From Oscillospiraceae bacterium (GTDB taxonomy: Bacteria > Bacillota > Clostridia > Oscillospirales > WRJC01): a stretch of DNA of 36,665 nt. The DNA lies in NCBI GenBank assembly GCA_009777355.1, contig WRMA01000010.1:1-36665 (forward strand). Reading direction: 5' to 3'. How positions within the stretch are numbered: position 1 is the stretch's first letter; each line of letters begins with the position of its first letter. The position numbers and the translations under genes are program-made. Below are positions 2,022 to 17,050 of the stretch, piece after piece. The notes beneath the pieces are model-generated. The model was not told the origin of the DNA, did no database searches, and was given only the letters and a program-made list of their open reading frames with translations.

Positions 2022-2504
2022 TTAATTATATTTATTCAGCATAAACGGCTTGATATAATATTCGCGGCTTATCATCTCGCCGTTGTCTCTGTCCGAGAAA
2101 ATTCTCACGGTCAGAATATATTCGGTTGATATTTCCGTTAAATCGGGGGAATAATTAATTTTAACGCTTTTGTTTTTATAGAACGCCTTTGACAGAACAG
2201 GTTCGCCGTTTTTCGTCAGTATGCCGTCCGGGTTTACGTCAAAAGATAATAAACCCGGTAAATCATGCGCGCCGCTTATTATAAAATTAGCGACAGTATC
2301 GAGAATATTATTCAACTCCGCGAGTTCGTTTGATTTCGCAAATACGCCCATAACCGGTATAACGACGGCGGTTGCGGCGATTACGAGAATGACGAAAACG
2401 ACCAGACCCGCCGTAAGTTCTGTCAAAGACGCGCCTTTTTTTGATTTTAGAATTTTGATTATAATTATAAATACGCCTCCTGATTTCCGTTTAATCCGGA
2501 ACAA
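2022..2504 (-). CDS. Minor type IV pilin/pseudopilin
   Basis: Class III prepilin signal KSKKG|ASLTELTAGLVVFVILVIAATAVVIPV with Glu at +5; last gene of the pilus operon. Confidence 0.8.
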   Translation of the reverse strand: MFRIKRKSGGVFIIIIKILKSKKGASLTELTAGLVVFVILVIAATAVVIPVMGVFAKSNELAELNNILDTVANFIISGAHDLPGLLSFDVNPDGILTKNGEPVLSKAFYKNKSVKINYSPDLTEISTEYILTVRIFSDRDNGEMISREYYIKPFMLNKYN

Positions 2505-2814
2505 ACGCGGTAATATAAGCGTCGTTCAATATTATCTTGTGCGACGCCGATATATCTTTGCTTTCGGATTTAAAATTTATCGTCGTTCTTATTTCTGTTT
2601 CCGCCGGATAATTACCCCGTATTATATTATTTATATAATCCTGATTATCTTTTGCGCCGTCTAACGCGCTTCGCGTCATTGCGAACGAAACGTTTATAAT
2701 TGCCGCTATAGTGAGCAGAAGAAGCGACAGCAGAAGAAGCGCGGCGATACTCTCCGCAAGGGTTTCGCCTTTTTTATTCAATAATAAATTTATTATTCTA
2801 CTCCGTTTTTTCAT
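2491..2814 (-). CDS. Minor type IV pilin/pseudopilin
   Basis: Class III prepilin signal NKKG|ETLAESIAALLLLSLLLLTIAAIINV with Glu at +5; overlaps both neighbouring pilin genes. Confidence 0.8.
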   Translation of the reverse strand: MKKRSRIINLLLNKKGETLAESIAALLLLSLLLLTIAAIINVSFAMTRSALDGAKDNQDYINNIIRGNYPAETEIRTTINFKSESKDISASHKIILNDAYITAFVPD

Positions 2815-3433
2815 ATCCCGTCAGCTCCCATTTTCCGTAACCGGTAATATTCCCGTCTGTTAATTTACCGCCCGTATATTCGTAAAACGCCCTTGATTTT
2901 ACCGTTCCTCCGTTTCCGGATTTTATTTTTATTTCCAGGGTAACGGCCATGTTCGCGGTTATATACGCCGTCTCGGGGATTCCCGGCGCTTCGCCCTCTT
3001 CCGGAACCGCCGGATATATCCGGACGTCCGGTTCAGGGAAGAAATCAAGCGTTATATTAATTTCGCCGAACCCGTCCGAATTAAAATTTTCGATTTGCAT
3101 TTCCAGTTCTATCTGAAAATTATCAAGATTCAACCCCGGGGTTTTTTCCGCGTTATACAACGCTTTCACTATTTGCGCCGATAAAAAATCCGGGTTTGCG
3201 GGGTCGCTTTGCAGACTGTACATAATATTTCCGTGAATCGAATCTTCGAGAATCAAAGTTTTACTGCGTATATTCTGTCTTACGGGCGCGTTCAAATTCG
3301 CGCTTGCCGCAGTCAGGACAGATACTGCGGCAAACAAAAGCAGCATTGTAATGCCCAGGACATACATCAGAGACGCGCCGCTCTCGTCTTTTATTATTTT
3401 TATTATTCTGATTATATTTTTTCCCGTTGTCAT
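2798..3433 (-). CDS. PilX/GspK-like pseudopilin without Glu5
   Basis: DESG|ASLMYVLGITMLLLFAAVSVLTAASANL: prepilin-like signal with Tyr rather than Glu at +5; embedded among pilin genes. Confidence 0.7.
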   Translation of the reverse strand: MTTGKNIIRIIKIIKDESGASLMYVLGITMLLLFAAVSVLTAASANLNAPVRQNIRSKTLILEDSIHGNIMYSLQSDPANPDFLSAQIVKALYNAEKTPGLNLDNFQIELEMQIENFNSDGFGEINITLDFFPEPDVRIYPAVPEEGEAPGIPETAYITANMAVTLEIKIKSGNGGTVKSRAFYEYTGGKLTDGNITGYGKWELTGYEKTE

Positions 3434-6400
3434 CAGCCTTCTTCTCCTCCGTCCCCGCCGTTTTGAGGTTTTACGATAATTTTTATTTCTATAATATCAG
3501 AATCGAGATTAAATTTAAGCTGGGAACCCGACTTTTCAGCCGTAAGCAGAATCTTATATCTGATAATATATTCTCTTTCTTCGCCGATTATATCTGTGAT
3601 TCCCGGAGTTAAAGTAAACTCCAGTCTGCCGCTGCCTTTGTTGATAACCGCGCCGTAATCGTCGTTTGTTATACTGTCCGTAAGCTCGTATTCTCCGGAA
3701 TCGCCGTCTGTAAATTTTACCAGGAAAATCTCGGGAGTTACGTTGTAGTCGTCGTGGGCGAGTCTTTCGCCGGAACTGAAATTGACGGTTCTCGTTATAT
3801 CGAGCATATGCGTATCGGCCGTTTCGATAATAAACGTAAAATCTTCGTCCGTAAGATTATCGGCCGTTTTAACCGGTATTCCCGCGACGGGCTGGGGGAA
3901 CGCAAGAGAGACATAAATGGGCTGACCCGGAGATACCGACTCTATCCCGGTTTCGTACCTGTAATCGGAACTCATGCTTAAATACGAGACTCCGTAGCCT
4001 TTGCCGGTATATTCCAGTCTGTATTTAATCTCGCGTTCTCTTTCGTCAGGGCTCAAATTCACGTTATGCGCGACTATGCGCGAAGAACCGTCGCCGAAAG
4101 TATCGATAACGAAAACGCTTGAATCAAGACTGTCTTTATCGGCAATCCTGAAATCGCCTGAAATCCATTCCGTGACGAGACCTCTTGTATTAACCGCTCC
4201 CTGCTCGTAAACGTTTTCGGCTTTAAGGGTTATCTCAAACAAATTATGACCTAGTTCTTCGACTGTTTTGGTAAGTTTCACCGGATTTATATATACCTGA
4301 ACCGGTTCGGGTCCGGATGCGTTTCTGTATTCGTGAGACAGGGCCGCCAGTTTCATTCCGCTTTCCTGCGAGTAACTGACCGAAGTCTGATTTTTGAAAT
4401 AATACAGCAGGGTCGTCGTTTTATTCGGGTCGTCTTTTACTTCGGTTAGGACTTCTATCTGAAAAGTTATTTTGATTTCTTCGTTCGTTTCTAATTTTAA
4501 CCCGCCGGGATTAAATTTCAGAACGCCGCCGTTCTCGTCGAATACGGCGGTATCTTCACTATCCAGGCCGTTAATTTTTACGTTGCCTATATATTTTATA
4601 TATTCGTCGAAAGGCTTGATTTGATTGGTTATTAAAATATTTTCAGCGGTTATCTCACCGTAATTTATGACGTTTATCTCAACCGTCAGGACAGAACCGG
4701 GCAGGGTGAACATTACGTCCGATTCGCCGTTTTCGTCTTTGATATAAGAGTTTACGGAGAGAAACGCGGGAGATAGAAACGAAACGCCGTCAAGATAGTT
4801 TGAAGTGGTCGTCCTTTCGGTTTCTCTCGACCGGAAAGCAAACTCCGTGTTAAACTGTCCGTCGGGGACTTCATATATTCCGTAATAGTGTTTCCAGCCG
4901 TATTCGACTCCCCAGTAACCGATAATCCTGCCGTCTGCCTTTGCGTCTGCCGACAGTAACTGCCGTATTTCGCCGACGCCCGTATCCGGAATACCCGTTA
5001 TAATAACGGGAGACCAGAACGTTATGCCGTAACCAGAGTCCGCAATCCAGACGTCGTACAGATACGGCTTATTATCTGCGGGCCAGTCCGGGTCTTCTGA
5101 AAATCTATCCCTGTAGTAACTTAAATCTTCGCCGTCAGTATAAACAGTTTCCAAATCCTCGTATCTGACGGTATTCCATGCGTCCGGATTCCAGTCCGGA
5201 TTTTGGCTTCCGCCCTGATTCGATACGGACGAAGCCGGGCTGATTCTTCTTGGAGAGCGGCACGGACGAATCAGGGTAAGCGAATCCCCCGGCTGAAGTC
5301 CGGGGCTGTCTATGTCTATACCGGTCAGATAGAAATTCATTCTGTCGCCGGACACAGCCTCGCGTTTCGTACTGTTGAGCGTTCCCGTCCTTAATCTTGA
5401 CGCGTGATAAAAAGAATATATGAACTGAGTTTCGGGAGTCGTCGGGCAGACCTGATAAAGCGTTCCTGGTATTTCGGCGTTCAACTCGGCGTATCTGTAA
5501 TCAGAATCATTAATATTATACGGAAGAGGCGCGTAATTTCCTTTGTAATCAGAATACATAAAATCGTTAAGATAATTATTATGCTCGTCCGTCCACCATT
5601 GCCCGGCCGACGGATTCCACCAGCCGTTCGCGTCGTATCCCGGGTCGTTCAGCGGCATTTGCAGTTCGACCCAATTTACGCTTTCTCTCTGATAAGCGTC
5701 CAGACCGTTCAAATCGGGATTTACCGGACGGGTATTCCAGCCCGTAATATAATCCTGATTCACAAAATGGCGGGTCGGGGAATACGGATTGGGCGTAAGG
5801 GTCGTAAGATTTGTCAAAGCCGCGCCCGTTCCCGTTACGGCGTCCGGTATTTCCATGTAAGAAACGTCGGAAAAATCGCCGTTTTTAAATTCCACGCTCG
5901 CCGCCCTGTTCGCGTTGGGCTCTGTAAAATCCCATGCGCTTCTGTCAGCCTGTTCTGGTCTGGGAGGGCTGTCAGTAACGGTCCATTCGAGAGGTCTGCC
6001 CATGTTTTTTATAAAAAGATACGGATAGTCTGAATTTTGTTCCCATTCTGTCTTGTCTATTTTATAATAGAAATCCAGCCAGTCCATTTCAAGAAATTCC
6101 GTGTTCAGCCCGACTCCCCCGCCGGCGGCTTTTTTGCCGCCTGTTTCCAGATTATAACCCGAGTTAATCCATGACTGCCGCTTATCCGTCGAATATCTGT
6201 GTCCCGACAGGAAGAAAGACGACGGCCCGCCGTTTATAATATTGACGGTCGCGGGTTCGCCTTTTCTTACTATGGGATAAAATTCTCCCGTGTTTTCGTT
6301 TACGGGCGCGGGGGCGAGATAAAACGCGCGAGAGACTATACCCGCGTTGTTTCCGGCGATACCGCCGCCGTTTTCAGACACCGGAATATTATTGTGATTA

Positions 6401-9120
6401 TTTACCGAGAGAAAATAAACGTCGCTGATTATGCCCGTATTATTCCCCGCGACACCTCCTACGTTATTATTTAAGTTAATTCCACCGTTAATTTCCGACT
6501 GCTCTACGCTTACCCGCCTGATAATTCCGGAGTTTGTCCCCGCTATACCCCCGACGTTATTATTGCCGTTTATCTCTGATTTTTCAAGGGTTAAACTGTG
6601 TATTTCCCCTCTGTTATACGCAAATAAACCGGTATTATTATTATCCCCGCCGTTAATAACTACTCCGCTTATAATATTTCCGCCGCCGTTATATTCCCCT
6701 GTGAAATCCGAGTTAATAACCGCGGCGTTAAAAATCATCGCTTCGCCGTTGCTTAAATCCTCTAATTCCCCCAGTTCTTTTCTGTACAGTTTAAAATCCG
6801 CGTTTAACTGCTGCGTATAATTATCCGCCGGGAATTTGCTTATATTCGCGATATGTCTGGGAGAACGTATAAGCCCGTATTCTTCCGGGGCAAAATTAGG
6901 GTTGAAATCGAGAGATTCACCGAGAGTTTCAATAAAACCGTTGGGTATATATAAATATCCTTTTCCATCGCTTATCTCAACGTCAAATTCCGCGCCGTAT
7001 ATTTCAGTTATATATTCGCCGTCCTCGCTATGCGAAAACTCTATTCCGTAACCGTCGTGTACGACTAATTTATTATCGGGAAGAACTTCGCCGCTTAATA
7101 AATATCTATATATTTCCGGTTCTTCTCCTGCGTATATTTCATAATAAAATAAATTTTCGACAGAAATATTCTCCGGTTCTATATTTTTGACGACGGGCCA
7201 GCTTTCTGGGGTCTGTATACCGGAGTAAAACGGGTAGGGATATATTTTATTATCGGGATTTAATATTTCTTCTGTGTCAAGTTCCGCGTAATACGTCCAG
7301 TCTAATCCCGGATTATACTGCAAAATCCCGTCCGTTCCAACGCCTTGGCTCAATATTTCGTTCGGCGTTTCAAGATTATATTCTTTGATTTGTTCCGGGA
7401 TTATTCCTTCTCCCGAAAGATAATAAGTATCCGTTAATATCCCGCCGGGCAATATTTCTCCCGCTATAGGATTTATTATATTTATCTCTTTGTTTTTCGG
7501 GGAAACGGCGAGAAACAAAGCTTTATCAGTAACGCCGCCGTTTTGTCCGGTTATCCCGCCGGCGTTATTGTCGCTTATAACGCGAATATAATTATCCGGG
7601 GAAACAAACGTCGCGTTTGCGATAGTTCCGCCGTTTAAATTTACCCCTACAATTCCGCCCGCATTTGATTTAGCGTATATTTGCCGGTTTTCCGTTCCCG
7701 GATTTTCTGTGAAGCTTACGTAAATATTCGTTATTGCGCCGTCGTTTATTCCGGCGACTGAGCCCGCGTTTATTCCTCCTTTAATTTCCGGATTTATCAG
7801 CGTAAGATTTCTAACGCTTCCGGTATTTAAAATATTACCGAACAGACCGGCGTTTTCAGTTCCGGGAGCGTTGATTTTAATATTCTCGATATTTTTACCG
7901 TTGCCGTTATATTCGCCTCTGAAATTATCGACCGGCTTAAAATTCGCGACCCCGTTATATTCAAGACTCATATTAATATTTTCGGTCTGGATATAAATTT
8001 TATCGTCCGTCTGATTTGATATACGGCGTATATTATTTAAGTGCCTCGCGGATTTGATTTCGAAATTATTTTCGGGTCTGTTCGGGTTATAGTAAAAATG
8101 CGTGTTAGCGGTAGAGAGGGAATTAAAGGACGCGCCGTCTGATTTCGTTACTTTCGCTTTTATATTTACGGGTTCTGCAGCGCCGCTTATATTATTATTA
8201 ATAAGAGGAGTATTAACGATATCCGCTCCGTCCGGGATTTCGTCGAGAATCCAGATATATCTTTTATATAATCCGCCCGCGTAAACGCCGGGGATTAAAT
8301 CGCCGATTTTTACGGGAGCTGTAATTTGAACCCCGTTTGCGGCGTTTATAATTTCGAAAATATACTCCTCTCCGTTTGCGATATTCTCTTCAGACAGTAA
8401 AAACTCCGCGTAAAGTATATTGACTTTACCGTTGAGATTTTTGTCGAAGCCGTCGTAAATATACGCCGCCTCGGGAATATTCGCGGCAAACGCCGCGCCC
8501 GCCGGGTTCGCGCCGTAATATCCCTGTTTTCTTTTTGAGGCGTGAGTATAATTATCAAATCCGCGTCCTCCCGTAACGTTGTTTATATTATCGCCGTTCT
8601 CCGGGGTATTATAATAACTAAACTCCGACTGCCCCGCGTCTCCGTAAAAAACAGACAAGACGACGCCCGTCCTGATATTATACTCCATCAGGAGCGCGCC
8701 GTTTAATATCGCTTTGTCTAATATAATTTCATCCAGTAAATTATAAAACGCATCCGTTAAATCGTCTCCGCCCAGCTCGTATCCGCCGGGCTTGCTTATA
8801 TAATAAATATAGTCGGCGTTATCAGGATTATCTTCCGGAATTTTAATAAACCCGGGAAGTTTCGTGTTGTCATCGTGATATTTTGTAAGCGTCTCTTTTA
8901 AATTTCTGTCCGTTACGCTTCGAATAAGCCGGTCCTGAGCGGCGAGATACAGGGTTCTCGCTATATTCATGCGGCCGGTCTGTCTGCCGTGTTCGATATA
9001 TCCGAGCATCGACGGAACCGACGCGGCGGCCAGAACCCCGAGAACAAACATAACGGCTATGACCTCAATCAGGGTAAACGCGGCCCTGCTTTTTATTTTG
9101 TCTATTAATTTCCCCCGCAT
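3433..9120 (-). CDS. Giant modular prepilin-adhesin (about 1,895 aa; ORF 1,901 aa): pilin N-terminus, two GLUG-type repeat blocks, jelly-roll-like domain, DUF11-like Ig domains
   Basis: N-terminus KSRA|AFTLIEVIAVMFVLGVLAAASVPSMLGYIEHGRQ is a class III prepilin signal. NAGLFG/NAGSVAGIND/NAGGIVGVN and NVGGIAGTNSG/NVGGVAGNNTG are GLUG-like. YAELNAEIPGTLYQ..TTPET resembles surface-protein jelly-roll domains. PGSVLTVEINVINYGEITAENILITN resembles DUF11. ORF-track start is 9138; the ATG at 9120 has the better SD (GGAG). Confidence 0.85.
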   Translation of the reverse strand: MRGKLIDKIKSRAAFTLIEVIAVMFVLGVLAAASVPSMLGYIEHGRQTGRMNIARTLYLAAQDRLIRSVTDRNLKETLTKYHDDNTKLPGFIKIPEDNPDNADYIYYISKPGGYELGGDDLTDAFYNLLDEIILDKAILNGALLMEYNIRTGVVLSVFYGDAGQSEFSYYNTPENGDNINNVTGGRGFDNYTHASKRKQGYYGANPAGAAFAANIPEAAYIYDGFDKNLNGKVNILYAEFLLSEENIANGEEYIFEIINAANGVQITAPVKIGDLIPGVYAGGLYKRYIWILDEIPDGADIVNTPLINNNISGAAEPVNIKAKVTKSDGASFNSLSTANTHFYYNPNRPENNFEIKSARHLNNIRRISNQTDDKIYIQTENINMSLEYNGVANFKPVDNFRGEYNGNGKNIENIKINAPGTENAGLFGNILNTGSVRNLTLINPEIKGGINAGSVAGINDGAITNIYVSFTENPGTENRQIYAKSNAGGIVGVNLNGGTIANATFVSPDNYIRVISDNNAGGITGQNGGVTDKALFLAVSPKNKEINIINPIAGEILPGGILTDTYYLSGEGIIPEQIKEYNLETPNEILSQGVGTDGILQYNPGLDWTYYAELDTEEILNPDNKIYPYPFYSGIQTPESWPVVKNIEPENISVENLFYYEIYAGEEPEIYRYLLSGEVLPDNKLVVHDGYGIEFSHSEDGEYITEIYGAEFDVEISDGKGYLYIPNGFIETLGESLDFNPNFAPEEYGLIRSPRHIANISKFPADNYTQQLNADFKLYRKELGELEDLSNGEAMIFNAAVINSDFTGEYNGGGNIISGVVINGGDNNNTGLFAYNRGEIHSLTLEKSEINGNNNVGGIAGTNSGIIRRVSVEQSEINGGINLNNNVGGVAGNNTGIISDVYFLSVNNHNNIPVSENGGGIAGNNAGIVSRAFYLAPAPVNENTGEFYPIVRKGEPATVNIINGGPSSFFLSGHRYSTDKRQSWINSGYNLETGGKKAAGGGVGLNTEFLEMDWLDFYYKIDKTEWEQNSDYPYLFIKNMGRPLEWTVTDSPPRPEQADRSAWDFTEPNANRAASVEFKNGDFSDVSYMEIPDAVTGTGAALTNLTTLTPNPYSPTRHFVNQDYITGWNTRPVNPDLNGLDAYQRESVNWVELQMPLNDPGYDANGWWNPSAGQWWTDEHNNYLNDFMYSDYKGNYAPLPYNINDSDYRYAELNAEIPGTLYQVCPTTPETQFIYSFYHASRLRTGTLNSTKREAVSGDRMNFYLTGIDIDSPGLQPGDSLTLIRPCRSPRRISPASSVSNQGGSQNPDWNPDAWNTVRYEDLETVYTDGEDLSYYRDRFSEDPDWPADNKPYLYDVWIADSGYGITFWSPVIITGIPDTGVGEIRQLLSADAKADGRIIGYWGVEYGWKHYYGIYEVPDGQFNTEFAFRSRETERTTTSNYLDGVSFLSPAFLSVNSYIKDENGESDVMFTLPGSVLTVEINVINYGEITAENILITNQIKPFDEYIKYIGNVKINGLDSEDTAVFDENGGVLKFNPGGLKLETNEEIKITFQIEVLTEVKDDPNKTTTLLYYFKNQTSVSYSQESGMKLAALSHEYRNASGPEPVQVYINPVKLTKTVEELGHNLFEITLKAENVYEQGAVNTRGLVTEWISGDFRIADKDSLDSSVFVIDTFGDGSSRIVAHNVNLSPDEREREIKYRLEYTGKGYGVSYLSMSSDYRYETGIESVSPGQPIYVSLAFPQPVAGIPVKTADNLTDEDFTFIIETADTHMLDITRTVNFSSGERLAHDDYNVTPEIFLVKFTDGDSGEYELTDSITNDDYGAVINKGSGRLEFTLTPGITDIIGEEREYIIRYKILLTAEKSGSQLKFNLDSDIIEIKIIVKPQNGGDGGEEG

Positions 9121-9127
9121 AAATATT

Positions 9128-9715
9128 TCACACTCCAAAAAATCCGGAAAAGTCCATTACGGTAAATTCAAAGCTTACGGTTATATTAGAAATATTAGAC
9201 GAATAAAACTCATAATCCGATTCCGGCCGGACTGAAAGAGACAGCCGGCTTATTTTTATATTGTCTGTTTGACCCAGAACAGATATAAGATTTCTGACCG
9301 AATTATAATCTCCGTTAAGCGACGCCGTTACTTCCACTTCATAAAAAGCGCCGGTATCTTCGTCTGCCGGACGTTTTTGAGGTGAAACCGACAGGGACAA
9401 TATAGAATTGAAGCCGCTTTCTCTGCACAATTCAGTTAAAATACCCGATATTTTTTCGTTAGATATATTTACCGGATAACTGATATTTATAATATTGAAT
9501 TTTTCTTCGGCTTTCATGCGGCTTAAAATTATGCCGGGTTCGTTGTCCAGTTTGATTTCCGTCCGGCGCATTTCCATAGCCAGCGCATCATATTCTTCGG
9601 ACAGGACGCCGGTTAGATTATACATCGGAAATATAATAAACTGCATTGTAATATACGCCGTAACCGTTACCGCCGCCGTAAAAATCAGGACTCTTTCCCG
9701 TTTGCTTAACCTCAT
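9128..9715 (-). CDS. pilO: PilO/GspM-like pilus assembly protein
   Basis: Short cytoplasmic N-terminus, one TM (VLIFTAAVTVTAYITMQFIIFP), then a periplasmic-type alpha/beta domain; directly follows the PilM/N fusion. Confidence 0.7.
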   Translation of the reverse strand: MRLSKRERVLIFTAAVTVTAYITMQFIIFPMYNLTGVLSEEYDALAMEMRRTEIKLDNEPGIILSRMKAEEKFNIINISYPVNISNEKISGILTELCRESGFNSILSLSVSPQKRPADEDTGAFYEVEVTASLNGDYNSVRNLISVLGQTDNIKISRLSLSVRPESDYEFYSSNISNITVSFEFTVMDFSGFFGV

Positions 9716-9720
9716 TGACT

Positions 9721-11154
9721 TTATACCTCTACGTCTATATTAAAATTATAATATATTATGCCGTCGCTCCCGGCGCCGAAGCTGTAGCCGGTATACAAAA
9801 CCGATTCGACGAGCCCGCTCGCTTTGAGTTTTTCCGCGTAGTCCGAAGAATCCAGTTCGCTTACGCTCCTCGCGGCAATTCTTATAATGCCGGCAGACTC
9901 GTCGAACTCTATTCTTGAAACCGTTATTTTTTCTCCGTCCGCGTTAAAAATCAAATCCAGAATTTCGTTCGTGATTTCCGGCAGTTTATTTCCCGCCTCT
10001 TTTTTTTGATTCAGCTGTATTTCTATATCAGAATATTTCGCCGTCCGGTTCATAATCTCGTCGAGCTCGGCTGATTTTACGGATACGTCCGCTATATCTC
10101 CTTTTATTTTTTCAATATTTCCGGTAAGTTCGTATATTTGCGAAGCGAAATAAACGACCGTTCCCGCGAGCAGCGTCACGATTGCGAGGAAGGCGGCGAT
10201 TTCCGGCCTTCTCGGCCTTGTAAGTTCTTTGAATTGATTAAGCGTTTTAATACTTTGTATTAAATCGATTCCGTCCGGGGAAGAAACGAGATGAATATTA
10301 AGATACGCGAAGAGCGCCTCGGGAAGAGCTTCCGGGTTTTCGGGGTCTTTTCCCGTCGTTTCAATCTCCGTTATTTCAATTTCCTTATGCCGGTTGAGAG
10401 AGTTGATTATATCTGTATCGCCTTTTTCCAATCCCAGATAGCAGACGCGGGTTATATCGCTGATTTTCTCCGATTTCGCAAACCGTACAAGCCCGGATAA
10501 ATTATTCGCTATATCGTTTAAAAACGATTCTTTATTTTCGCCGTTAAGCCTGACTCTCGACATAAAGACGTTTACCCCGTTTTCAAATATAGCGGACAGC
10601 ATAGTTAAAGCGTCTATTACATTTATTACGAGAGTTTCGTTCTGAAATTCCAGCTTTGATTCTATATAGCTCATGACCGTCTGCGCGCCTATATGAACGG
10701 ACTTTAATTTTATTCCGGCGTTTCTAAAAACCGATATATATTCTTCGGCCTGGTTTCTGTCCGCGGCGCACGATAATATTTCAGCCTCGTTATTTTTCCC
10801 TTTGACAATACTGTAATCGAGAAGAAGCTCTCTAAAATTATCCGCCGCGTCTGAAAATTCGTCTTTTATAAGTCTGTAATACTGCCGCCGTTTGAGTTTT
10901 GGCGCGGGGAATTTCTTAACCGAAACGGAACCGCCGTCTATAACGAGCGACGTATTTCTGAAAAGCCCCGGGTTTTCGCGCCGCATAGAATCCAGACATT
11001 GCGTCAGGACTCCGCCGTCCGTTATTACGCCGTCGGCCATAACGCCTTCGGGCAGATAATAAACCTTATATTTATTTATTTTAAAGCTTCTGCCGGATTT
11101 AGTATAGCCTATCGCTTCGATTCTTTCCGGCGATATATAAACCGACGATTTCAT
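9721..11154 (-). CDS. PilM-PilN fusion (actin-like domain + TM + PilN-like domain)
   Basis: The N-terminal ~300 aa are PilM/GspL-like (YISPERIEAIGYTKSGRSFKI..., LVIDGGSVSVKKFPAPKL). TM PEIAAFLAIVTLLAGTVVYFASQIYEL is followed by a coiled-coil and a ferredoxin-like PilN region. Lies between pilC and pilO. Confidence 0.75.
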   Translation of the reverse strand: MKSSVYISPERIEAIGYTKSGRSFKINKYKVYYLPEGVMADGVITDGGVLTQCLDSMRRENPGLFRNTSLVIDGGSVSVKKFPAPKLKRRQYYRLIKDEFSDAADNFRELLLDYSIVKGKNNEAEILSCAADRNQAEEYISVFRNAGIKLKSVHIGAQTVMSYIESKLEFQNETLVINVIDALTMLSAIFENGVNVFMSRVRLNGENKESFLNDIANNLSGLVRFAKSEKISDITRVCYLGLEKGDTDIINSLNRHKEIEITEIETTGKDPENPEALPEALFAYLNIHLVSSPDGIDLIQSIKTLNQFKELTRPRRPEIAAFLAIVTLLAGTVVYFASQIYELTGNIEKIKGDIADVSVKSAELDEIMNRTAKYSDIEIQLNQKKEAGNKLPEITNEILDLIFNADGEKITVSRIEFDESAGIIRIAARSVSELDSSDYAEKLKASGLVESVLYTGYSFGAGSDGIIYYNFNIDVEV

Positions 11155-11192: not shown

Positions 11193-12251
11193 TTATTGCG
11201 CTATATTATTATACAAATCAAATACGGGCAGCATAACGGACAGCATAATAAAACAAATAATAGCCGCCATAGACACTATAAGAAGGGGTTCGAGAAGCCG
11301 CGTCATTCCCTCGGCCGCCGTTTCGGCTTCGTAATCGAGGCTTTCCGCCGCCGATATAAGCATACCGTCGAGATTGCCCGATTCCTCGCCTATTAAAACG
11401 TACGCCGCGAGTTTTTTGTCGAACCCCGATATTTTTCCGGCCGCTTCCGATAATAATTCCCCGTTCCTTACGTTTTCTATTAAGCCGTTAAGCTGTTCCC
11501 GTATAAACTTATTGCCGATTACGGACGCGCTTATTTCAAGGGAGTCTATAATCGATACCCCGCCCGAGTAAAGCGACGAGAGGGTCCTCGCGAATCTTGC
11601 CGTATAAATAGTTTTCAGTAATCTCCCGAACAATATAAACTTTAATTTTTTCTTATCGTACCAAAGGGAGACTTTATAAATCCCCGATAAATATTTTACA
11701 AAAGCCGTTATTATCAAAACTCCGGCTATCGTCCGGAGCCAGTAGGAGCGGAAAAACCGGCTGAGCGCGAACATGACCCGGGTAATAAGCGGCAGGGGCA
11801 TATCTTCAAACAGGCTGAACGTCTCGGGAAGTATGAGAGTGAATATAACCATCGCGGCAGTTCCGGTTACCGCCGATAAAACGACCGGGTAGGTCATTGC
11901 GGAGCGGATTTTATTGTTTAACCTATATTCTTTTTCGTAGTGCGCGGCCATCTTCGAGGCGGCGCGTCCGAGCTGACCGGACGTCTCTCCGGACGCGTAC
12001 ATATTTATTAGAAGCTCGGGGAACGCCGGTTTCTGAAGCCTCATCGCTTCGGACAGCGAAGAACCCGACGAAACGTCCTTATGCAGTTTGCCGTAAACCC
12101 CCAGAAGAACGGGCTTAAAATCCCTTGATTTTAAAATCCCGACGGCGCGTATAACCGTTATGCCGCTTTTCAGCATACCCGCAAGCTGTCTCGAAAATTC
12201 GGATATTTCGTTCGGTTTCAATTTATATCCCGGCATCTCTTTATTCTCCAA
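11193..12251 (-). CDS. pilC: Type IV pilus inner-membrane platform protein (PilC/GspF family)
   Basis: EFSRQLAGMLKSGITVIRAV, LSEAMRLQKPAFPELLINMYASGETSGQL and FARTLSSLYSGGVSIIDSLEIS are hallmark T2SSF repeats. Confidence 0.92.
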   Translation of the reverse strand: MENKEMPGYKLKPNEISEFSRQLAGMLKSGITVIRAVGILKSRDFKPVLLGVYGKLHKDVSSGSSLSEAMRLQKPAFPELLINMYASGETSGQLGRAASKMAAHYEKEYRLNNKIRSAMTYPVVLSAVTGTAAMVIFTLILPETFSLFEDMPLPLITRVMFALSRFFRSYWLRTIAGVLIITAFVKYLSGIYKVSLWYDKKKLKFILFGRLLKTIYTARFARTLSSLYSGGVSIIDSLEISASVIGNKFIREQLNGLIENVRNGELLSEAAGKISGFDKKLAAYVLIGEESGNLDGMLISAAESLDYEAETAAEGMTRLLEPLLIVSMAAIICFIMLSVMLPVFDLYNNIAQ

Positions 12252-12259
12252 AATTTACT

Positions 12260-12772
12260 TTACTGCCATATAAACAAAAATAAATTTAAATACGATTCGA
12301 TAATTCCGCCTATTTCGCCGCCGTAAAGCATGGCAAGGCAAATGCCCGCGCACAGATAAGGCCCGAACGCGATCGCCGCGCCTTTCTTCGCTTTACGGCT
12401 CAAGAGCAGATATATCGCGTATACTCCGCCCAGCAGGAGCGCTATGGAAAACGCCGCCAGCATATTTTTCCAGCCAAGTATAAATCCGCACGCCGCGGCG
12501 AGCTTTATGTCTCCCCCGCCGAAAGCGCCGTTTATTAAAAGCGAGATAATCAGCATGGGCAGGCTTATTACAAAAAAGCCGGCCGCGCGTTCCCAAATAT
12601 TAATTTCGGTAAATACCCGCGCAGACATAACCGCGAACGGCAGAAGGGCGAGTATTAGCGAATCCGGGATTTCCATCGTCTTAAAATCTATGACCGCTAT
12701 CGCGGCAAGTATTACGAATACTCCGAGAGTTATAATAAATCCCATCATAAGCCTATTAAGAGTTTCTGACAA
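12260..12772 (-). CDS. Prepilin peptidase (A24 family), short form lacking the N-terminal methyltransferase domain
   Basis: Aspartyl motifs AVIDFKTMEIPD and GGGDIKLAAACG; hydrophobic, 170 aa; within the pilus operon. Confidence 0.88.
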   Translation of the reverse strand: MSETLNRLMMGFIITLGVFVILAAIAVIDFKTMEIPDSLILALLPFAVMSARVFTEINIWERAAGFFVISLPMLIISLLINGAFGGGDIKLAAACGFILGWKNMLAAFSIALLLGGVYAIYLLLSRKAKKGAAIAFGPYLCAGICLAMLYGGEIGGIIESYLNLFLFIWQ

Positions 12773-13202
12773 TCGAAGCCGGTTCTCCGGGTTTTATCGT
12801 AACGGTATAGTCGTTTTTAACGTATATAAGCTGCGAAACCACCCCGTTGCCGAAAGTAATGCCGTTTATATTTTCGACCGACAGGTCGGGAGCGAGCAGA
12901 CCCGCCAGTTTGTTATTGTACGCCGCGTTATTTCCCGCCGTCGGATTTGAACCGAAATGACCGGACGGCTGCCACTGACCGATACTGTGGTTCATAACGT
13001 GGGCTTCCGTGATAACCGCCTGAGCCGCGGTATACGTCGCTCTCGCCTCCGCGACCAGAGTTTTTCCCCTCGCGTCGCTGATAAAGCCGATAAGCGACGG
13101 AATACCGGCCGCCGCGAGTACCGCGATAATGACCAGTACGACGATAATCTCAACCAGCGTGAAGCCTTTTTTGTTTTTCAGCGCGGATAATCTGTTAATC
13201 AT
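12756..13202 (-). CDS. pilA: Major type IV pilin (PilA-like)
   Basis: LKNKKG|FTLVEIIVVLVIIAVLAAAGIPSLIGFISDAR, a canonical class III prepilin signal; 148 aa; SD AGGGAG upstream. Confidence 0.9.
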   Translation of the reverse strand: MINRLSALKNKKGFTLVEIIVVLVIIAVLAAAGIPSLIGFISDARGKTLVAEARATYTAAQAVITEAHVMNHSIGQWQPSGHFGSNPTAGNNAAYNNKLAGLLAPDLSVENINGITFGNGVVSQLIYVKNDYTVTIKPGEPASIVRNS

Positions 13203-13304: not shown

Positions 13305-14996
13305 TCAATCCGTAAAATACGTCAGTTTAAGCAGTTCGCCGACCGACGTCTTTTTTTCCAGGACTAAATTCAGCAGACTTTCCCGCAGGCTTTTCATTTT
13401 TTTATTCGCCTTTATATAACCGTAAATATCTTCGGCCGGAGATTTCTTTGAAATCATGCTTCTTATATTCGAATCGATATATAGAATCTCATGGACGGCG
13501 GCGCGTCCTTTAAATCCGGTGTTGTTGCAGTTATGGCAGCCCGCGCCCCTCGCGAGACTGGGCGCGTCCTTTAAAATCAGCCCGGGTTCGCTCCCGGACG
13601 GGGTATATTCTTCATAGCAGTTACGGCATATTTTTTTTACGAGGCGCTGCGCGGCGACGCCGATAAGGGAGTTTGCGAGAAGATATTCTTCCACTCCCAT
13701 ATCGATAAGCCTGACTATTGCCGAGACCGAATCGTTGGTGTGCAGAGACGACAGGACAAGATGCCCGGTCAGGGCAGACCGTACCGAAACGGCCGCGGTT
13801 TCCGGGTCCCGGGTCTCTCCTATCATGATGATATCGGGGTCCTGCCTGAGGATTGAACGCAGACCCGACTCAAACGTAAGGCCGGCGGGAGGGTTGATTT
13901 GCGTCTGGTTTATTTTCGGCAGATTTTTTTCTACGGGGTCTTCTATGGCGGCGATATTGACAAGTCTATGCGAGAGCGCTTCCATTATCATATAGAGCGT
14001 GGTCGTTTTTCCGCTGCCGGTCGGCCCGGTTATATATATCAGTCCGTGCGGAGCTTTTAATATATCCGTCATTTTCTCAAAATCTTCCCGGTCCATACCG
14101 AAAGTGTCCGCGTTGTCGAGAACCGTATTCCGGTCCATAAACCTCAGGACTATTTTTTCGCCGTATACCGTGGGCATGACCGAAACGCGGACGTTTATCT
14201 CGGCGTCTTCCAGTTTTGCGCTGAAGCGCCCGTCCTGGGGTATGCGTTTTTCGGCTATGTCGAGACCGGACAAAATTTTTATCCTCGAGACCATAGAATT
14301 ATGCAGAGACTTTGCAATAGTCAGGTAATCGACGATTTGACCGTCGATACGGATTCTTATATTTATATTATTCTCAAACGGTTCTATATGAATATCGCTC
14401 GCTCCCGCGCCGCGCGCCTTATAAAGCGTTGAATTTATAAGCGAGACTACGGGAGTATCTCCGGACGTTTCCGAAATATCGATTTTTAAATCCGTAAGAG
14501 GGCGCGCTCCGGTTTTTGCGGCGGTTTCGTTCGCTCCCCGGGCGGCTTTCTGAGCTTCGATTTCAGAGTAGAACTCGTCTATGGCCTTTAAAATATCGTC
14601 TCTTTTACAGATTCTCGTTTCGATTTGCATACGGGTAATTAACTTTACTTCTTCGAGAGCGTAATAATTAAGCGGGTCGTTTATGCATAAAATCAAAACG
14701 GAATTTTCCATATTAGCCGCGATAAGACAGTATTTGAGGGCGGTCGCCTTGGGTACTCTCGCGACTGCCTTTAAATCGACGGGAACGTCGCTTAAAGATA
14801 TATATTTTAAGTTAAGCTGCCTGGACAGCGCCGACAGTATCCTGTCCTCCGAAAGTATATTATTTTCGATTAATATATCTCCGAGCCGTTTTTTACCGCC
14901 GGACTCTTTTTGCAGACTTAACGCGCGTTCAAGCCGTTCGCGGGTTATATATCCCGACTCGAGCAGAACCTCGCCGAGTCTTAATGGCGCGCCCAT
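13305..14996 (-). CDS. pilB: Type IV pilus extension ATPase (PilB/GspE)
   Basis: N-terminal MshEN-like domain, Walker A ITGPTGSGKTTTLY, GETRDPETA, tetracysteine CRNC...CHNC; SD GGAGG before the ATG. Confidence 0.95.
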   Translation of the reverse strand: MGAPLRLGEVLLESGYITRERLERALSLQKESGGKKRLGDILIENNILSEDRILSALSRQLNLKYISLSDVPVDLKAVARVPKATALKYCLIAANMENSVLILCINDPLNYYALEEVKLITRMQIETRICKRDDILKAIDEFYSEIEAQKAARGANETAAKTGARPLTDLKIDISETSGDTPVVSLINSTLYKARGAGASDIHIEPFENNINIRIRIDGQIVDYLTIAKSLHNSMVSRIKILSGLDIAEKRIPQDGRFSAKLEDAEINVRVSVMPTVYGEKIVLRFMDRNTVLDNADTFGMDREDFEKMTDILKAPHGLIYITGPTGSGKTTTLYMIMEALSHRLVNIAAIEDPVEKNLPKINQTQINPPAGLTFESGLRSILRQDPDIIMIGETRDPETAAVSVRSALTGHLVLSSLHTNDSVSAIVRLIDMGVEEYLLANSLIGVAAQRLVKKICRNCYEEYTPSGSEPGLILKDAPSLARGAGCHNCNNTGFKGRAAVHEILYIDSNIRSMISKKSPAEDIYGYIKANKKMKSLRESLLNLVLEKKTSVGELLKLTYFTD

Positions 14997-15181: not shown

Positions 15182-17050
15182 ATGGAATTTAGGCTTAATT
15201 TATCCGCGAAATATAATTACGCGAAAAACTATAACGGCGAGAAAGACAAATATATTTTTGAAAGGCACGGAGGCGAGGTTTTTTTTGAGGTAAACGGGAA
15301 GATTCCCCCGGAATGTAAATATTTCGCGTTCGATATCGAGAACCCGCAGGATTTTTCGGCAAGAATAGAAATCAGGTTTTATAAGGCGAAAATTTCGGAA
15401 CCCGCCGAATGGTTCATGGAAAACCCCGATTTTTCCATAACTACCGGCGTTCTGCCTTTTATTAAGACGACGGTTGAAATCCCGGTTTCTTATCTTGACG
15501 GTCAGAGACTGTTCGGGGAACGGCGCAAGGGTATATTAAAGACCGTCGTAAACGGCAAACGCATGAATCCCGACGATATAGCGTATATCGGCGTATATAT
15601 GGCGAAATGCCATATCAGGCCCGTTCTCGGCATAAGCGGCGCGCGTTTCGCTTCCGAAGCCTCTCCCCCAAGCGATTTCAATTTCGATTCCCTTATCGAC
15701 GGATTCGGTCAGTGGAACCAGAAAGACTGGAAAAACAAAACAAAATCTATTGAAGAATTAAAGTTATACCTCGACGGCGAACTGAAAAAAGCCGGGGAGT
15801 TTCTGAAAGATTACAAAGACGGGTTTTACGGGAGCGGCGAATCCGGCTATAAAGCGACGGGATATTTCAGAACGGAAAAACTGCCGGAAAATAAATTTAT
15901 TATGGTCGCGCCCGACGGCAGGGAATTTTTCGGGTTCGGCTGCGACTGCGTGGGCTTGAACATAAGCGGACCTCTTGAAAACGGCGAGACTATTAATTTT
16001 CTCGAAGAAAACCTGCGTAAAGTATGGGGAGATTTATACTATGAAAACTGGCAGGTTCTGACTAAATACCGGCTGATTAAATGGGGAATAAACACTATCG
16101 CCGCGTGGAGCGATATAAAATTCGCGAAACAGAGTAAAATCCCCTACGTATTTATTTTAAACGGATACCCGTCGTCAGAAAACTGCATTTACCGCGATTT
16201 CCCCGACGTATTTTCAGACGAGTTCAAATCAAATTCGGAAATTTACGCGAAAGCTCTGGAAGAATTCAGAGGAGACCCGTATTTAATCGGCTATTTTATG
16301 TCGAACGAACCTAACTGGGCGTTTGTCTGGGGGTTAAATTTAGGATATGAAACTTTTATTTCTCCCGGTCATATAAAATCTAAACGGGAATTAATTAAAT
16401 TTTTAGAGAGCGAATACGGCGGCGTTATAGATGATTTAAATTTAGATTTTGACACGGATTTCAAAGATTTCGGCGATATAATAAACGCGGGAATAAACAC
16501 GAAAATATCTGAAAAAGCAGTAAAGCGGCTCGATAAATTTTCAAAGATTTTAATTAGAGAGTACATAAAAATCCCCGCCCTGGCGTTAAAATCAGTAGAC
16601 GCGGAGCATTTGAACCTGGGTATACGCTACGCCTTTATATCGAACGACGATTTATTTGAGGGCAGGGAATATTTCGACGTTTTCTCGATAAACTGCTATG
16701 ATAATTACCCCGAAAAAGCGATAGAGCGAGTCGCCCAAAAAACTAATATGCCCGTTATGCTGGGCGAATTTCATTTCGGCGCGCTCGACGCGGGTCTCCC
16801 CGCGACGGGAATCAGGGGCGTCGAAAGCCAGAAAGACAGGGGCAAGGCGATAAACGAATATATAAGCGGGGCGAAAAATACAAGGCAATGCGTCGGAGCG
16901 CATTATTTCCAGTTGAACGACCAGCCGTATCTCGGCAGATTCGACGGCGAGAACTACAACATAGGACTGGTTGACATATGCTGCGTGGAATATTCTGAGC
17001 TGACAGATATAATCTCCCCCGTCGAGCGAATCCCGGAGATTTTCTTCTGA
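15182..17050 (+). CDS. Agarase (GH50)-like clan GH-A glycoside hydrolase, no evident signal peptide
   Basis: RLIKWGINTIAAWSD, DPYLIGYFMSNEPNW (acid/base NE), PVMLGEFHFGA (nucleophile E) and VGAHYFQLNDQPYLGRFDGENYNIGLVD resemble agarase-family TIM barrels. SD GAGGAG upstream. Confidence 0.72.
   Translation: MEFRLNLSAKYNYAKNYNGEKDKYIFERHGGEVFFEVNGKIPPECKYFAFDIENPQDFSARIEIRFYKAKISEPAEWFMENPDFSITTGVLPFIKTTVEIPVSYLDGQRLFGERRKGILKTVVNGKRMNPDDIAYIGVYMAKCHIRPVLGISGARFASEASPPSDFNFDSLIDGFGQWNQKDWKNKTKSIEELKLYLDGELKKAGEFLKDYKDGFYGSGESGYKATGYFRTEKLPENKFIMVAPDGREFFGFGCDCVGLNISGPLENGETINFLEENLRKVWGDLYYENWQVLTKYRLIKWGINTIAAWSDIKFAKQSKIPYVFILNGYPSSENCIYRDFPDVFSDEFKSNSEIYAKALEEFRGDPYLIGYFMSNEPNWAFVWGLNLGYETFISPGHIKSKRELIKFLESEYGGVIDDLNLDFDTDFKDFGDIINAGINTKISEKAVKRLDKFSKILIREYIKIPALALKSVDAEHLNLGIRYAFISNDDLFEGREYFDVFSINCYDNYPEKAIERVAQKTNMPVMLGEFHFGALDAGLPATGIRGVESQKDRGKAINEYISGAKNTRQCVGAHYFQLNDQPYLGRFDGENYNIGLVDICCVEYSELTDIISPVERIPEIFF

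Follow-up and report, generated by a model that had tools for sequence, protein, structure and literature searches.

A giant modular prepilin that probably displays an adhesin rod on a type IV pilus in an Oscillospiraceae bacterium

Surface recognition by type IV pili (T4P) is poorly understood, especially in Gram-positive gut bacteria. Here we deal with a 36,665-nucleotide stretch of DNA from an Oscillospiraceae bacterium (assembly GCA_009777355.1, contig WRMA01000010.1; 'the window' means this whole stretch), in which a pilus operon includes a gene for a prepilin of about 1,900 amino acids (aa), hereafter the giant. The question raised by this locus is what so long a prepilin does: an earlier note had proposed that the pilus machinery incorporates it at or near the tip, where it would act as an adhesin in place of a PilY1-like protein. 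Our analysis suggests that the giant is quite probably a modular minor pilin displaying an adhesin rod on a T4P. That proposal thus stands as the best-supported reading with three amendments, namely that the design is already known as the modular pilin, that the cap would be the neighbouring gene product, which lacks Glu5, with the giant beneath it, and that a role in place of PilY1 is not established.

A complete pilin with a C-terminal graft

The giant is encoded on the minus strand by a single, uninterrupted open reading frame (ORF), complement(3433..9138), of 1,901 codons counted from TTG at 9138. The likelier start is the ATG at 9120 (3433..9120, 1,895 aa), with GGAG twelve bases 5' of it. 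A class III leader, MRGKLIDKIKSRAA (9079..9120), is followed by a predicted cut RAA|FTLIE, and both prepilin profiles exceeded their curated cut-offs (Pfam N_methyl: 21.7 bits against 21.2; TIGR02532: 19.9 bits against the NCBI cut-off of 16.3). The leader is hydrophilic, the residue preceding the cleavage site is Ala and not Gly, and the mature N-terminus FTLIEV has Phe at +1, where Phe or Met is expected, and Glu5 (E5) within a run of about 20 hydrophobic residues; PilD cuts after Gly or Ala (PMC3244431). The predicted mature protein is 1,881 aa, 208.2 kDa and pI 4.47. No LPXTG-like motif was found within its last 80 residues, and beyond the pilin helix there is no transmembrane (TM) segment (19-aa hydropathy reaches at most 0.52 at the C-terminus), so that the giant lacks the C-terminal signal of a sortase-anchored adhesin, in which an LPXTG-like motif is joined to a hydrophobic stretch and a basic tail. 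The unbroken frame, the class III prepilin signal and the lack of an LPXTG motif or C-terminal TM anchor, all claimed by the earlier note, are thereby confirmed, the strand being minus.

Residues 21–213 (8500..9078, minus strand) form the pilin module, a long alpha-1 helix followed by beta strands and ending ..KQGYYG, which was delimited by alignment to stand-alone pilins of 189–191 aa, matched end to end, and by AlphaFold. The model (residues 7–745; mean predicted local distance difference test score (pLDDT) of the whole model, 64.7) showed a 54-residue alpha-1 helix (17–70) and strands after it, a pilin fold whose globular part is of moderate model confidence; the profile also matched pilins in the PDB across the N-terminal helix. 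In two Clostridiaceae metagenome-assembled genomes (MAGs; loci L055 and L056) the homologous gene encodes just 189–191 aa and ends ..GFYG at about giant residue 213, with the same K-like and minor-pilin genes coming next, and the same kind of stand-alone pilin lies at the matching place in G563 and G622. Since the unfused relative ends there, the giant is a complete pilin followed by a C-terminal graft, and sequence comparison places the junction near residue 213. The adhesin body had no detectable homologue anywhere in G563 or G622; the unfused-pilin genomes thus do not hold pilin and adhesin as separate detectable genes, an arrangement that had been envisaged as an objection. In a tree of the pilin module built without short prepilins, the unfused pilins were sister to the window-type giants (98/95). 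When short prepilins were included, long branches dominated and the deep order was unreliable, so the tree does not map the direction or number of fusions.

Colinear giants encoded by single ORFs were found in independent assemblies (G045, 2,832 aa; G078, 2,859 aa; L045, 1,665 aa; L054, 2,475 aa), together with further single-ORF relatives (L050, L051 and L053) and partial copies that run into a contig end (L048, L049 and L052). The colinear single-ORF giants span 1.6–3.4 kaa and are 35–44% identical to the window giant over long stretches, with no internal stops; such identity excluded a chance origin of the 1,901-codon frame. An error of assembly, sequencing or annotation that joined adjacent genes for a pilin and an adhesin might be suspected from the separate pilin gene of L055 and L056; the same fused ORF recurs in these independent assemblies, which excludes such an artefact and leaves it a practically negligible chance. 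These relatives are MAGs of Oscillospiraceae or Lachnospiraceae, and among their sample codes Th196, Nt197, Co191 and Lab288 denote termite samples (PMC7024585).

We searched 396 genomes of the order, and a second sample of 388 genomes of the class, with a profile of the pilin module. The order sample gave about 16 near-full-length matches, none in an ORF shorter than 787 aa and the majority in ORFs of 1,500–3,750 aa, with weaker matches extending to a 5,261-codon frame in G152; the class sample gave giants of 1,893–3,284 aa in further families, two short stand-alone pilins and a few of about 500–700 aa. The giants of G099 and G185 and those of G036, G152 and G035 have the pilin module in common and graft contents of their own; the graft of G099, for example, includes an F5/8 type C domain. 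No prepilin was found in either sampled congener (G001 and G002), so the pilus locus is patchy within the genus.

Some of these genomes also showed features of their own. In L072 (G152:C14) a prepilin frame runs for 5,134 aa or more, up to the end of the stretch examined, and G036 has 25 N_methyl matches, many in ORFs of about 470–630 aa scattered across contigs, which suggests an expanded set of mid-size modular pilins. L068 (G170) contains a sub-threshold FIVAR-like stretch at residues ~3249–3405, and L046 (G078) has a Cys/Asp/Glu-rich repeat at its C-terminus (..CDCEEECDC..).

Graft modules and their counterparts on sortase-type proteins

The graft, roughly 1,690 residues long and likewise on the minus strand, begins with a beta-rich domain (residues ~224–361, 8056..8469; AlphaFold pLDDT roughly 50–85), followed by GLUG block 1, a beta-helix (residues ~358–576, 7411..8067). 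A low-confidence linking beta domain predicted by AlphaFold (residues ~658–732, 6943..7167) precedes GLUG block 2 (residues ~752–970, 6229..6885), which opens with GLIRSPRHIANI. GLUG, which we take to be IPR011493, scored a sub-threshold 10.6 bits in Pfam when the giant was searched alone; block 1 is supported by the family profile, columns 386–604 of which matched PDB entry 3n6z (1.5e-7), and by Foldseek, in which the AlphaFold model of the stretch (pLDDT about 90) gave 3n6z as top match (E 1.8e-5). This entry was deposited as a putative IgA1 protease of Bacteroides ovatus. Block 2 was recognized by homology to block 1 and to the GLUG blocks of relatives, which have apparently one (L045) or three (L046 and L047) compared with the two of the window giant. 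The C-terminal part comprises a putative jelly-roll module (residues ~1084–1462, 4753..5889), a recognizable homologous unit with the motifs FxNGDF, AELNAxxPGTLYQ, YYGxYxVPxGQ and NYLDG and with no PDB relative by profile search, and tandem Ig-like/DUF11-like domains (residues ~1460–1889, 3472..4761), sub-threshold in Pfam and modelled at residues ~1460–1890 as tandem beta-sandwiches with Ig-type matches (pLDDT about 75). Structure and profile comparisons thus found the adhesin-type domains on which the earlier note had staked its reading: the two GLUG-type blocks and the DUF11-like Ig domains hold, and the jelly-roll domain holds as a homologous module of putative fold.

Counterparts of the last two modules occur on proteins of a different kind. 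In the congener G002, a 906-aa ORF cut by a contig end carries the jelly-roll module followed by two DUF11 repeats and DUF7601, and ends in PPPTG, a hydrophobic segment and a basic tail; its C-terminal part resembles NCBIfam 'pilus ancillary protein 1' (pilus_ancill_1) below the family cut-off. The neighbouring genes encode a signal peptidase, a DUF7601 pilin-like protein, a sortase, an FctA-domain backbone (VPKTG end) and a second sortase-like ORF. The jelly-roll and DUF11 modules of the giant and the G002 protein are 27–38% identical over their common stretches. Across 297 genomes of the order, a search with the jelly-roll module recovered the close giants; its other carriers include proteins of G272 (IPITG end, adjoining an LPTTG protein), G280 (MPSTG end), G233 (LPSTG end) and G169 (TM end, with signal-peptidase-like and sortase-like neighbours), the matches outside G002 and the giants being weak (E 2e-15 to 9e-7). 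In the sortase-type surface proteins L093 (G280) and L094 (G272) the AELNA/GTLYQ module is combined with Listeria-Bacteroides repeats (TIGR02543). The graft therefore has modules in common with GLUG IgA1-protease-like and sortase-type proteins, which are not specific to T4P, and its union with a pilin module gives the giant the make-up of a modular pilin.

From this similarity, sortase-type surface adhesins are a candidate donor of part of the graft, a direction of transfer that we infer. Four close giants (G078, G045, G170 and G092) end in a short hydrophobic and basic tail, preceded in G092 by LPDAG, which could by its sequence be a degenerate sorting signal; that giants with such a sorting-like tail would also be sortase substrates and form a hybrid filament is highly unlikely.

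Operon position and predicted place near the pilus tip

The giant is the seventh of ten genes in a same-strand T4P operon (14996–2022, minus strand), and thus lies among genes for pilus assembly. Upstream of it are a PilB-type assembly ATPase (13305..14996), a short prepilin of 148 aa with prepilin-profile matches that is presumed to be the major pilin (12756..13202), a PilD-like prepilin peptidase of 170 aa recognized by profiles and without the N-terminal A24_N domain (12260..12772), a PilC-type platform protein (11193..12251; gene order and homologues), PilM (9721..11154; Pfam) and a PilO/T2SS-M-like protein (9128..9715; weak Pfam match and gene order; T2SS, type II secretion system). Downstream are a K/PilX/ComGG-like pilin without Glu5 (G|ASLMY, 2798..3433; sequence and gene order) and two small minor prepilin-like proteins with Glu5 (KKG|ETLAE, 2491..2814, prepilin profiles; KKG|ASLTE, 2022..2504, prepilin profiles and homologues). 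The intergenic gaps range from −17 to +38 bp, except for 102 bp after PilB, and the stop codon of the giant overlaps the start of the K-like gene (TGATG). The window genome (2.0 Mb, 143 contigs, 91% complete) has two N_methyl matches, both in this operon, one A24 peptidase, four sortases and a single T2SSE-family ATPase, the PilB of the operon. The A24_N domain had no match genome-wide while positive controls matched, so the pilins may be cleaved yet not N-methylated. The PilM ORF continues into a TM segment and a PilN-like part, an apparent PilM–PilN fusion, and the PilM genes in L047 and L052 are of similar length.

T4P filaments assemble tip first, and the core minor pilins make a tip complex whose cap is marked by the lack of Glu5, the residue that pairs with the N-terminus of the subunit above (PMC10191384). 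The K-like protein encoded next to the window giant has Tyr at position 5 in place of Glu, and the giant retains Glu5, as do the two remaining minor pilins. Glu5 was likewise missing in all 17 K-like neighbours inspected (16 beside giants and one beside an unfused pilin), and such a Glu5-less pilin adjoins 16 of the 22 giants examined. Since the K-like proteins gave no match to the T2SSK or PilX_N profile, they are assigned by gene order and by their lack of Glu5; the giant gave no match to an H-specific profile, and its slot and neighbours are compatible with the H subunit of an HIJK set. With a neighbour lacking Glu5 and a giant retaining it, the giant is predicted to lie directly beneath a K cap, and by analogy with known tip complexes it probably sits just under the pilus tip.

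On this basis a sequence of events can be proposed. Cleavage of the giant by PilD after RAA would leave it with an ordinary pilin stalk (residues 21–213), and PilB and PilC would insert it among the first subunits of the pilus, where it would dock directly below the Glu5-less K-type cap supplied by the translationally coupled next gene. The graft would then extend as a rod beyond the end of the pilus and attach to a ligand; this might be a gut glycan, such as one from plant fibre, or else a surface of the host or of bacteria. The designation of the graft as an adhesin would follow Streptococcus sanguinis PilB, a modular pilin that is itself adhesive (PMC8179133); plant fibre or a glycan as ligand is a guess prompted by the habitat of the relatives and by the link between T4P and cellulose in Ruminococcus. 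More broadly, we lean towards the view that giant minor pilins (~1,500 to >5,000 aa) make up a class of their own in Clostridia, with a dedicated pilin module, a fixed slot below a Glu5-less cap and acquired adhesin rods, part of the rod in the subfamily of the window being common to sortase-pilus tip or ancillary adhesins, so that one adhesin module would serve two unrelated filament machines in one genus.

Alternative explanations and known systems

Several observations weigh against a giant displayed at the tip of a T4P. A K-like neighbour was not seen beside 6 of the 22 giants (by a simple motif search, one giant lying near a contig end), and no PilT was found in the window genome, 91% complete, so pilus retraction is doubtful there; a PilT-like gene adjoins PilB in the relatives G092 and G036. 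The hydrophobic and basic tail of the close giants is odd for a subunit that would leave the membrane at a filament tip. As for the adhesin rod, Pfam alone gives neither DUF11 nor GLUG above threshold in the giant, and AlphaFold models of the jelly-roll region from eight sequences had pLDDT below 50.

These same tails (in G078, G170, G092 and G045), together with the size of the giant, far above that of the roughly 150-aa major pilin, and the missing retraction ATPase, would suit a membrane-tethered adhesin, for which the prepilin signal serves export and anchoring only and which never enters a filament; archaeal bindosome-type proteins offer a parallel. We regard this as unlikely, since the giant occupies a minor-pilin slot in a pilus operon, coupled to the gene of a Glu5-less cap pilin, and since conservation extends to E5 and the whole pilin module, the unfused relatives being plain pilins in the same slot. 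A T2SS- or Com-like pseudopilus for secretion or DNA uptake, with the giant as a short-pseudopilus effector, could also account for a single assembly ATPase without PilT, and GspG and ComGC are among the top general N-terminal profile matches. The presence of a PilM-type gene, and of PilT-like genes next to PilB in relatives that share this giant slot, makes it decidedly unlikely. Very unlikely, too, is a non-adhesive tip effector, be it an IgA-protease-like enzyme formed by the GLUG/M26-like stretch or a glycan-processing or DNA-capturing tip. The GLUG blocks resemble 3n6z, Peptidase_M26_N barely exceeds its cut-off in the relative G078, and the M26 label given to the N_methyl and IPR011493 architecture (PMC8179133) would suggest an enzyme; yet the HExxH motif is absent from the giant, no catalytic domain was found in it, and related modules occur on sortase-type surface proteins. 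An IgA-protease function was rejected, HExxH being absent and the M26 label stemming from similarity in the GLUG region.

A modular minor pilin carrying an adhesin rod has precedents, and both the modular pilin design and the pairing of N_methyl with IPR011493 are already published (PMC8179133). Like the giant, S. sanguinis PilB and PilC (PMC8179133; PMC9934059) carry an adhesive module grafted C-terminally on a pilin in a monoderm T4P, with a proposed tip location. PilB, however, is 454 aa with one vWA module, whereas the giant is about four times longer, combines modules of several types with a pilin module from another family, and is accompanied by a Glu5-less K-like neighbour. The IPR012902-IPR011493 architecture of the same survey likewise joins a prepilin signal to GLUG motifs, but it appears there only as a predicted M26 peptidase, and the giant family, its locus and the donor are not described; the most extreme multi-domain modular pilin in that survey is 860 aa (PMC8179133). 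CofB and TcpB of type IVb pili and Thermus thermophilus ComZ (PMC8179133) are also large minor pilins with extra beta domains, although they are much smaller than the giant, and the beta-solenoid of ComZ is inserted within the pilin sheet whereas the graft of the giant is appended. Ruminococcus T4P pilins share gut Clostridia, T4P and plant-fibre adhesion with the giant, but those linked to cellulose adhesion are small (13–14 kDa) and without a graft (PMC3672088). PilC/PilY1, a feature of diderm type IVa pili (PMC10191384), is also a large modular adhesin presented by T4P, but it is not a pilin and requires a minor-pilin complex. No PilY1 match was found in the window genome, a result that is uninformative because the control search also gave no match; the IPR008707/PF05567 beta-propeller was absent from Pfam scans of the giant. 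Sortase-pilus tip or ancillary adhesins such as the G002 protein have the jelly-roll and DUF11 modules in common with the giant, but the G002 protein relies on a PPPTG sorting signal and sortase anchoring and has no pilin module. The 'three large minor pilins' of Pelobacter carbinolicus are an unrelated precedent for size, and tapirins are T4P-linked cellulose adhesins.

In the open-access literature searched, with subscription papers, preprints and supplementary tables outside the search, we found no report of the size class of the giants, of their spread and fixed slot, of their unfused relative or of modules shared with sortase pili. Profile-based counts of modular pilins probably miss the giants because Pfam sees little past the 27-residue N-terminal motif. 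The stand-alone pilin and the pilin with graft in the same slot provide a natural before-and-after pair, and the family, with a candidate donor, variation in block number and many genomes, offers material for testing T4P subunits of at least 200 kDa, and it bears on how Oscillospiraceae-type bacteria attach to fibre and in the gut.

Two further ORFs flank the pilus operon, both on the plus strand. The one at 15182–17050, divergent from PilB, encodes 622 aa that look glycoside hydrolase-like by eye, with no Pfam match at E 1e-4. The other, at 613–2019 and convergent with the operon, joins two ABC ATPase halves in a single frame, by eye a DppD/DppF-like oligopeptide transporter fusion.

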